From the NCBI GenBank assembly GCA_016934575.1, contig JAFGSN010000149.1, positions 1 through 42,204 of the forward strand: a stretch of DNA of 42,204 nt, given 5' to 3'. Each line of letters starts with the position of its first letter. Position 1 is the stretch's first letter. The translations under genes were made by a program, and so were the position numbers. This document shows positions 1 through 40,898 of this stretch, piece by piece. Under the pieces are notes generated by a model. It was not told where the DNA came from. It was given only the letters and a program-made list of their open reading frames with translations, and made no database searches. This stretch comes from Vicinamibacteria bacterium. Its GTDB lineage: Bacteria; Acidobacteriota; Vicinamibacteria; Fen-336.

Positions 1-22
1 GTTGCGGCTCACAGGTTCGCTC

Positions 23-42
23 ACCCGGCCAAGCCGGGTTTT
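23..42 (+). terminator. Rho-independent terminator-like hairpin
   Basis: A perfect 7-bp stem (ACCCGGC pairing with GCCGGGT) closes a CAA loop and runs into TTTT. It would end a transcript entering from the left of the window. The T tract is short, so efficiency is uncertain. Confidence 0.5.
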
Positions 43-162
43 ACTTGGGGCGTCTGACGGTCGGTCGCCCTCGCGCCAGCCCACGTCGCTACCGGGGCGC
101 ACCGATAACTCCCCGGGTGAGACTTCCACTCACTGGTCTATTCCGCCTTTCGTGACGCACTG

Positions 163-1364: not shown

Positions 1365-2864
1365 CTATTCCTTGGGGTTTCCTACCGCGGTCTCTACGAT
1401 GTCGACAACCCGTTCCGTGACACGCCTAAACAATCCAGCGGCGCGCACCTGCACGATCCAGAACGGTTCAGCCTCCGTGTAGGTGTGAAGGACCGCAAAG
1501 GACGGTAGCCGGCCGTGCTTGCGTGGCCAACGGAGACGCGCCAGCTCCATGTCGGTCCCCCGACCTCCAGCCACAACCTTGAGCGCAATCACATTGTATG
1601 TGACACCCAAGCCTACGGCTTCGCGCCGGCGCCCGATGACTTCGCAGAGAAGAAATGCGTCCTCGGGTTTCGCGACCAGGCGAAGACCGGGCTCATCCTT
1701 GGCTGCTTTTTTGATCTCCTCGACAGCGCTGGCGAGAGCGCCCGGCTTCTCGCTCCGCATCAACCAGCCATCCGCAAATGCGGCTGCCTCCTTCAAGAGT
1801 CCCGCGTTCAATTCCGCACGTTCCAGCTCCCGGGTAGCAGCATCCGGCCAGGTCTCCTTGCCGACCCCGTGCGTGGCCTTGAGGTTCCGCTCGAGGGCTT
1901 CGAGAGCGTTCTCCGCTTCATTGGCCCGCTGCTTTCGCAACCTTGTCTCCGCCTCGGCGGCAACCTTGTCGAGCGCGTCAGAGACAGGCGTACCAATCCT
2001 GAAACACACGTCTATCTGTTGGTTCGATTCAGAGCGCCGTGCCGTGTCGATGACGCGCGCCGTGAGAACGAGGACGAGAACGGCGCCTTCCTCTCCGAGG
2101 CCCGTTTTCCCGATGACGACGTACTGGCCCGAATGCAAGGTGGTGTCGGCTCGCAGCCCGATGTTCATGTAGTCGATGGCCTGGCCGCTGGTTCGTATCG
2201 GCAGCTTCGCGGTGAATCGGACCCCCTCCAGCTTGAGGACCGCATCCTTCCCTGAGCCCATCACTGTCGCCTTCCGCGCCTCGAAGTCGTACACCAGCGG
2301 CGCCACTTCTCCGGCGCGAGAGGGAGCGATGGAAGAAACCATGACTCCGCCAGGAGGGGAGGCGTGCGCCACGAGTGTGTCCTGAAGCGTGTAGCCCGAG
2401 TAGTCGAACAATGCATGGAGCTGTCTCGCGACGGGTCGGAGCCGCTCGGGAAGGTCGTCGAGCTTCCCCGGCGTCGTCTCGGCCTGGACGACGTAGAGGG
2501 TCAGGACAATGCTGGGCTCCGTCGGCGGGGGGACGTCGAGGCGCTTGATGGTCTGCTCGATCACCGCCATGATAGCCGGCTTGGCCGAGACGGCCAACGC
2601 CGGGAGGTGGGTGGAGTAGCTGATCTCCGCGGGGAACGCCTTCAGCAGGCGGGCCATGCTCCCCACGTCGACGTAGCGCAGGGTGAAGACACGCTGAACA
2701 TAGCCGGGCAGTGCGGCCCGGCGCGGTTCAGACGTCGGTTGAGGGGCGCTTGGCTCGGGCGAGGGTGTCTCCTGCGCCATCACGACACCCCGCGAAGGCA
2801 CCAGAACGAGTAGACCTCCGACCAGCGTCAGGATCCCGATCAGCAGCTTGCACCGATATGTCAT
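1365..2864 (-). CDS. Exported protein with secretin-N-like domain
   Basis: A 499-residue protein with an N-terminal signal segment (about residues 7-30, ending near AQE) and a proline-rich spacer. Residues 53-115 resemble a secretin short N domain (FTLRYVDVGSMARLLKAF, then LPALAVSAKPAIMAVIEQTIKRLD). A beta-rich region around 220-280 (GLRADTTLHSGQYVVIGKTG, then VLVLTARVID) follows, then a helical stretch and an unrecognised C-terminal domain. No full secretin pore domain is evident, so it is unlikely to be an outer-membrane secretin. The start has a good GGAGGTG site and overlaps the anti-sigma stop by four bases. It is the third gene of a sigma/anti-sigma operon and is probably an envelope output or sensor of that switch. 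Confidence 0.65.
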   Translation of the reverse strand: MTYRCKLLIGILTLVGGLLVLVPSRGVVMAQETPSPEPSAPQPTSEPRRAALPGYVQRVFTLRYVDVGSMARLLKAFPAEISYSTHLPALAVSAKPAIMAVIEQTIKRLDVPPPTEPSIVLTLYVVQAETTPGKLDDLPERLRPVARQLHALFDYSGYTLQDTLVAHASPPGGVMVSSIAPSRAGEVAPLVYDFEARKATVMGSGKDAVLKLEGVRFTAKLPIRTSGQAIDYMNIGLRADTTLHSGQYVVIGKTGLGEEGAVLVLVLTARVIDTARRSESNQQIDVCFRIGTPVSDALDKVAAEAETRLRKQRANEAENALEALERNLKATHGVGKETWPDAATRELERAELNAGLLKEAAAFADGWLMRSEKPGALASAVEEIKKAAKDEPGLRLVAKPEDAFLLCEVIGRRREAVGLGVTYNVIALKVVAGGRGTDMELARLRWPRKHGRLPSFAVLHTYTEAEPFWIVQVRAAGLFRRVTERVVDIVETAVGNPKE

Positions 2865-38093: not shown

Positions 38094-38471
38094 CTACTTA
38101 ATCTCGACTTGTGCGCCGACTTCCTCGAACTTCTTCTTGATGGCGGCGGCCTCGTCCTTGGTCAAGCCTTCCTTGACGAGCTTCGGCGCGCCGTCCACGA
38201 GATCCTTGGCTTCCTTGAGCCCCAGGCTCGTCACCTCGCGCACGACCTTGATGACGTTGATCTTCTTATCGCCGGTGCTCGAAAGGTGCACGGCGAACTC
38301 CGTCTTCTCCTCCACTGCCGCGGCGGCCGGGGCGCCTGCCGCGGCGACCATCACCGGAGCCGCGACTGCGGCTGAAACGCCCCATTTCTCCTCAAGCTGC
38401 TTGACGAGATCCGCCACTTGAATCACGTTGAGCTCGCTGAGCTGATCCACTATCTTCTGAATATCGGCCAT
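38094..38471 (-). CDS. rplL: Ribosomal protein bL12 (L7/L12)
   Basis: A 125-residue stalk protein. It has the N-terminal dimerisation helices ([20 protein letters not shown]), the Ala-rich hinge and the C-terminal factor-binding domain ([21 protein letters not shown] in two pieces, [20 protein letters not shown]). The frame is open 14 codons upstream, but ATG at 38471 has a GGAGG-rich site and matches the family start. It follows rplJ by 127 bases and precedes rpoB by 176 bases. Confidence 0.97.
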
Positions 38472-38598
38472 GCTCCTCTTCCTCCTCAAGTCCCTCGATG
38501 AAGGACTACACAATCATTCCAAACACGATACGACGTCCACTCGCGCACGAAACGTCTCGACAAGAATCATTCCGCCAATCGCCACTGCCGTGCGGACC

Positions 38599-39534
38599 TT
38601 ATTTGAAGTTGGCGTTCCCACATATGTATAGGCCGCCAGACGTCGTCCAAACGCAGACGGACGTGGCGGTGTCGCCGTCGCTCGATGACACGATCTGCGC
38701 GCAGCCCATCGCGCCCGCGATGTTGACGTCGAAGCGCTTGAAACCCGTCTCGCGGGCCGTTCTCTCTAGATTTGATAGCACGCGGCTCTTGAGATCGCTC
38801 TCGCTTTCACAAAGCAGCTCTCGGGAACCCCACGCGCCCTTGAGACCTTCGAACTCGCGCTTGACTCGATCAACGGCCACCTCGGGCGACTGTGGAACGG
38901 CTTTCTCGAACAACTCTTCGACCGCCTCTCCTGGGGAAGTCGTCGTCGTCAAGGACAAGAGCTCGCGTCCTTGGTATCGCTCGGCGGCGGGCGTCTTGGC
39001 TCTGCCGGCGTGCGCGCCGCCGATCTTCTTACGGCGCTCGTCGAACACGCGCGCGAGTTGCGTTGCGGGAGCGTCGAGCAGTCGCACGAGCTGCGCCATG
39101 GGCGCCATGAGAACGCCGAGCAGACGCGCGCGCATCTCGGGCAATCCGGGCATGCTCGACAACGCCTTGACGCCGTCGGCGTCCAGGATCTGCGATCCGG
39201 CGAGCAGGCCGGCCTTGACCACGAGATTCGGATTCTCCTTGTTGAAATCGATGAGCACCTTGGCCAGAACCACGGGATCTTCCCGCGAGTAGGCCACTCC
39301 GGTCATGCCCGAGAAGCCCTGTTTGACCATTTCAAGCGGCGTTCCCTGGATCGCACGAAGCGCCAAGGTGTTCTTGACGACGCGATAACCGCATCCGCTC
39401 TTCCGGATCCTGCGACGAAACTCGGTCGCTCTCGGAACCGTGAGCCCCGTGAAATCCACGAGGATCGCGTGCGGCGCCTGCGTGAACTCTTCTCGCAGGC
39501 TCTCAATCTCAGTCTGTTTCTGGGTGCGATTCAT
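38599..39534 (-). CDS. rplJ: Ribosomal protein uL10 with C-terminal extension
   Basis: A 311-residue L10. Residues 1-171 are a complete bacterial L10: rRNA-binding domain (HAILVDFTGLTVPRATEFRR, RVVKNTLALRAI, FSGMTGVAYS) and the L12-binding helix (RLLGVLMAPMAQLVRLLDAP, ARVFDERRKK). Ordinary L10 ends here. The frame continues for about 140 residues: a linker (AHAGRAKTPAAERYQG), a helical part (GEAVEELFEKAV, VDRVKREFEGLKG) and a likely beta-rich end (FDVNIAGAMGCAQIV, TSVCVWTTSGGLYIC). I do not recognise the extension and see no frameshift. The ATG at 39534 follows GGGGAG. Confidence 0.93.
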   Translation of the reverse strand: MNRTQKQTEIESLREEFTQAPHAILVDFTGLTVPRATEFRRRIRKSGCGYRVVKNTLALRAIQGTPLEMVKQGFSGMTGVAYSREDPVVLAKVLIDFNKENPNLVVKAGLLAGSQILDADGVKALSSMPGLPEMRARLLGVLMAPMAQLVRLLDAPATQLARVFDERRKKIGGAHAGRAKTPAAERYQGRELLSLTTTTSPGEAVEELFEKAVPQSPEVAVDRVKREFEGLKGAWGSRELLCESESDLKSRVLSNLERTARETGFKRFDVNIAGAMGCAQIVSSSDGDTATSVCVWTTSGGLYICGNANFK

Positions 39535-39655: not shown

Positions 39656-40360
39656 TCACTCCTTGGCCTCCATGGAGCTCGGATCCACCCTCACGCCCGG
39701 TCCCATCGTCGAAGACAATGTCACCGAGAGGACGTATCGTCCCTTGGTGCTCGCCGGCCGGGCCTTGATGACGCTTCCGATCAAACTCTGGACGTTGTCC
39801 ACGAGCTTTACGCCGTCGAAGGAGACCTTGCCGATCGGGGCGTGCACGATCCCGGCTTTGTCCACGCGATACTCGACCTTGCCCGCCCGTATCTCCTGCA
39901 CCGCGCGCGCCACTTCAAAGGTCACCGTGCCTGTCTTGGGGTTGGGCATCAGGCCGCGCGGTCCGAGGATTTTGCCGAGCTTCCCCACGGAGCGCATCAT
40001 GTCGGGCGTCGCGACGACGGCGTCGAAATCCAGCCAACCCTCCTGGATCTTGGCAACGATCTCATCGCCGCCCACGTGATCGGCCCCCGCATCCTGCGCT
40101 TCCTTCGCCTTTTCACCGGAGGCGATCACGAGGACGCGTTTGGCTTTACCGCCCAAGCCATGGGGCAATACGACGGTTCCACGAACCATCTGATCGGCGT
40201 GCTTGGGATTGACTCCCAGGCGCATCGCCACCTCGACGGTTTCGTCGAATTTGGCGAACGCGCTTTTCTTGACGACATCCACGGCCTCGGGGATCTGATA
40301 GATCGGCTTGACCTTGGCCGCTTTCCGCGCCTTTTCATAATTCTTGCCGACACGTCGCAT
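39656..40360 (-). CDS. rplA: Ribosomal protein uL1
   Basis: A 234-residue protein of the L1 stalk and a probable translational repressor of its operon. Family motifs are present: [60 protein letters not shown] and [21 protein letters not shown]. The ATG at 40360 follows AAAGGAG. Length is normal. It lies 115 bases behind rplK. Confidence 0.98.
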
Positions 40361-40475: not shown

Positions 40476-40898
40476 TCAACTCGCCACTTCCACTCCCATG
40501 CTACGAGCCGTTCCCATGACTATCTGAATCGCGGCTTGCAGGTCTTCGGCGTTGAGATCCGGCATCTTCTGCCTGGCGATTTCCTCGACCTGCTTCATCG
40601 TGACCTGCCCGACCTTCGCCTTGTTCGGCTCTCCGCTGCCCTTGGCGATCCCGGCCGCTTTCTTCAAAAGCACGGCCACGGGCGGCGTCTTGGTGATGAA
40701 CGTATAGGACCGATCGGCATAGACCGTGATCACCACGGGGATAATGAGGCCCTCTTCCTTCGAGGTCTTGGCGTTGAACGCCTTGCAGAAATCCATGATG
40801 TTGACGCCCGCCTGACCCAAGGCGGGACCGACCGGCGGCGCCGGTGTCGCCTTGCCTGCCGGAATCTGCAGCTTGATTTGACCGACCACTTTCTTCAT
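40476..40898 (-). CDS. rplK: Ribosomal protein uL11
   Basis: A 140-residue protein of the GTPase-associated centre. The N-terminal domain has [20 protein letters not shown] and [17 protein letters not shown]. The C-terminal RNA-binding domain has [19 protein letters not shown] and [17 protein letters not shown]. Length is normal. Its ATG shares one base with the nusG stop (TGATG), so the two are translationally coupled. Confidence 0.98.

Follow-up and report, generated by a model that had tools for sequence, protein, structure and literature searches.

The analysed window is a stretch of 42,204 nucleotides from contig JAFGSN010000149.1 of a Vicinamibacteria bacterium (assembly GCA_016934575.1). 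It contains rplK, rplA, rplJ, rplL, rpoB, and rpoC in their usual order, all on one contig. rplK (40476..40898) and rplA (39656..40360) encode ordinary L11 and L1 proteins, and rplL (38094..38471) encodes an ordinary L7/L12 of 125 residues, as identified with Pfam. rplJ (38599..39534) encodes uL10; its frame starts with ATG, stays open for 311 codons and, like the three other ribosomal protein genes, lies on the minus strand. The gap between the rplJ stop and the rplL start, also read on the minus strand, measures about 128 nt (38472..38598), against 34-79 nt in relatives of the same family. No coding signal is observed in this gap, and its RNA fold is not unusual (z = -0.14). A search for promoters and terminators gave nothing above chance, and the inverted repeats flanking the insertion amount to just one short, chance-like pair. 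Elsewhere in the window, positions 1-135 (minus) match the Rfam group-II-D1D4-4 intron with 77 bits and are truncated by the contig end, and an open reading frame at 1368-2864 (minus) has a weak Secretin_N match, barely over the cut-off.

The L10 protein is made up of an ordinary part and a C-terminal extension. The ordinary part, residues 1-172 (39019..39534, minus), matches L10 entries of Pfam, NCBIfam, and the PDB, including 1zav, and ends in three predicted helical segments. The Pfam model Ribosomal_L10 (PF00466) covers residues 1-99, and the NCBIfam model of bacterial L10 (NF000955) covers residues 5-170 with 159.4 bits, where the cut-off is 85. The core is in frame with the alignment of relatives up to about residue 170. 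The extension, residues 173-311, is uncovered by Pfam and NCBIfam models. It spans 139 residues (38599-39018, including the stop) and is divided into a putative linker (about residues 173-200; 38935..39018, minus) and a putative extra domain (about residues 201-311; 38602..38934, minus). An earlier note, made from the sequence alone, had described an L10 with a C-terminal extension whose ordinary end lies near residue 170, and both points are borne out: relatives end at about 170-178.

The extension has the character of coding DNA. Its G+C content at the three codon positions (0.59/0.53/0.75) resembles the pattern of the L10 core (0.65/0.42/0.79). With the other genes of the window as training set, a codon score compared with 5000 dinucleotide-preserving shuffles gives z = 3.7, a value equalled by about 1 in 5000 shuffles. 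The frame stays open in 4% of shuffles, and none of the 5000 combines an open frame with an equal codon score. The signal starts at residue 173, is weaker over the last 50 residues, and becomes negative past the stop at 311. Over 20-residue windows, the extension has an entropy of 3.23 bits, compared with 3.35 bits for the core. It is close to neutral, with a charge of -2, and contains Trp and four Cys residues (242, 278, 294, and 305).

A sequencing or assembly error, in which a base error masks a stop near residue 175 or foreign DNA has been joined to the gene, is very unlikely. The source is a draft assembly of 247 contigs, the extension is known from this single genome, and single substitutions would turn some codons around residues 173-180 into stops. 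A single substitution masking a stop is conceivable, but it would leave more than 500 nt, more than 400 of them coding-like, in place of the 34-79 nt spacer of relatives. The order of rpoC, rpoB, rplL, rplJ, rplA, and rplK on one contig is normal, which argues against an error. The earlier note had also raised a stop near position 39020 hidden by a sequencing error. Past the conserved end, the first stops in the other frames occur at codon 195 (frame 1) and codon 221 (frame 2). No single-base insertion or deletion can therefore conceal an ordinary L10 end, and a frameshift masking a stop is excluded. A changed genetic code is likewise ruled out by the neighbours L12, L11, L1, and NusG, which have normal lengths and match their families.

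L10 is 174-178 residues long in all genomes with a complete copy that are closest to the window, six of the same family and one of the same order, and these are the relatives with the short rplJ-rplL spacer. The earlier note had counted ordinary L10 in close relatives as a sign against the extension; ordinary L10 is what the family has, and the feature is thereby lineage-specific, not false. A wider survey, purposely enriched for long open frames, covered 97 different L10 sequences up to their stops; 80 of them are 170-179 residues long, and the lengths of two (G001 and G087) are not true because N runs or a partial match interrupt these rows. Eight L10s of the phylum reach 249-284 residues through acidic Ala/Pro/Glu tails, and one family accounts for seven of the eight. 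A whole-protein scan of genome contigs returned a single L10 relative of 203 residues, which is without such a domain.

Some genomes of the survey are uninformative on the extension. Over the part that it retains, G001 is the relative with the highest L10 identity, and N runs in its L10 leave the status of the extension unreadable. In this genome (L041, G001:C126), several 2-base N runs lie in L1, L10, and nearby genes, and coding sequence is missing at some breaks. L1 and L10 are both missing from G002, G003, G008, G011, and G013, members of the same family with a stated completeness of 85-100%, probably because a contig is missing; these genomes thus say nothing about the extension.

Searches with the extension alone gave no match beyond chance in samples of 192 other genomes of the class and 395 other genomes of the phylum. 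E-values of these searches are per genome, and values of 0.005-0.05 are thus expected. Among the weak matches, one (L032) is antisense, opposite hisD-like open reading frames, another (L059) is antisense to a further open reading frame, and several others are interrupted by stops. The source genome itself gave no match beyond chance either. The same holds for phage records, PHROGs, viral contigs, PDB sequences, and plasmids, where the best match has an E-value of 0.3. A literature search found no report of such an L10 domain among the papers it covered. None of the sequence searches returned a homologue against which conservation of the extension could be judged.

The earlier note had suggested that the extension may come from fusion with a once separate gene, which would have been captured behind rplJ. 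This origin is compatible with a functional domain and is rather improbable. The domain is coding-like and follows a linker, and short purine-rich stretches precede two weak TTG starts within the frame, at residues 193 and 208. The suggestion is not upheld by the searches, as a free-standing homologue is absent from the genome, the class and phylum samples, phages, plasmids, and viral contigs.

The main rival of an accessory domain is a functionless passenger, which would have arisen in this lineage by insertion between rplJ and rplL or by stop loss and whose translated tail would be tolerated at the flexible end of the stalk. This explanation is unlikely. It accommodates the absence of the extension from all relatives measured, the lack of relatives of the extra domain, and the long low-complexity L10 tails tolerated in other lineages of the phylum. 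Codon bias and normal complexity speak against random or recent non-coding DNA as its source; a passenger could instead derive from a coding gene.

AlphaFold2 models of the extension alone and of the whole protein, the latter with a two-row alignment, have mean pLDDT values of 39 and 48, so only their outline is usable. In the L12-binding region of the core, three helical segments are predicted (132-142, 144-154, and 157-172). In Thermotoga and Thermus, L10 has been reported to carry three L12 dimers (PMC10931766, PMC4592705), and the three segments are consistent with the same number here, which is the probable copy number. An uninterrupted lengthening of the L12-binding helix was also considered; the low-confidence model ends this helix at residue 172 and places the linker next. 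In both models, about residues 173-200 form a coil, mostly without secondary structure and with the lowest pLDDT. The tentative outline of the extra domain is three helices followed by two to four strands, and both models place helices near 201-211, 217-235, and 245-263 and strands near 276-283 and 290-298 with low confidence. These predictions fit the helical part and Cys-containing beta-rich end described in the earlier note. The projection towards the factor-binding site proposed there is not supported. The extension follows the last L12-binding helical segment and would thus be suspended from the distal stalk end.

The extension is probably a genuine, translated, lineage-specific C-terminal addition to bacterial uL10. 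It is read as real because its frame is open, codon-biased, and continuous with L10, its complexity is near that of the core, and the models agree on the helices and two central strands. The lack of a homologue, the low model confidence, the single draft genome with a contamination of 4.38%, and the drop in codon score over the last 50 residues are points against this reading. The likeliest reading is a real domain, specific to the genus or species, that a linker attaches to the tip of the stalk. L10 and the extension would be translated as one protein. Residues 1-172 would keep their usual role, binding 23S rRNA with L11 and presenting L12 dimers, of which there are probably three, on the C-terminal helix. 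Behind them, a flexible linker, about 28 residues long, would tether a small alpha/beta domain with a size of about 110 residues, which is presumed to fold. As the linker lies beyond the L12-binding helix, the domain would sit at the stalk's outer end in one copy per ribosome. It may serve as a tethered accessory that binds a partner working on or near the ribosome, or that adjusts stalk assembly, and would not take over any factor-recruitment step. An accessory role is on balance likely, and the sequence does not specify which. The narrower proposal, in which a new folded stalk domain, one per ribosome, recruits a partner close to the factor-binding region or regulates it there, is doubtful.

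Few parts of the bacterial ribosome are as constrained as the base of the stalk. A folded-looking orphan domain on L10 would show that a single lineage can gain new parts at this site. The extension is a testable case of ribosomes gaining lineage-specific protein mass.

Bacterial uL10 (NF000955, PF00466; Thermotoga maritima 1zav) resembles the window protein over residues 1-170, in gene order, and in the helical C-terminal L12-binding region. The window protein differs by 139 further residues that lie outside every L10 model. With 311 residues it exceeds the typical length of 165-180, a range that is not strictly defining and that the eight other long L10s of the phylum exceed as well.

These eight L10s (G357, G397, G322, G336, G542, G350, G364, and G321; loci L143-L147 and L149-L151), from one family and one genome of another, are also lengthened at the C-terminus. 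Their Ala/Pro/Glu-rich tails are of low complexity, with an entropy of 2.1-2.3 bits and a charge of -23 to -35 in the three tails computed. The window extension is unlike them in charge, entropy, and the presence of Trp and Cys, and the acidic tails seem to represent a separate, independent way of lengthening L10.

Cyanobacterial L10 has a lengthened C-terminal part and binds four L12 dimers (PMC4592705, PMC10931766). There, the lengthened part is the L12-binding region itself, whereas the window L10 has a different kind of sequence after a linker. Archaeal L10/P0 likewise continues past its L10 core with additional C-terminal sequence. The window extension has no similarity to the archaeal models, which match only within residues 2-136 and far below the cut-off, in agreement with the earlier judgement that it is not the P0 extension. 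Judged by model match and gene order, the window L10 is a bacterial uL10, and its extension is neither an archaeal P0 part nor an acidic tail.
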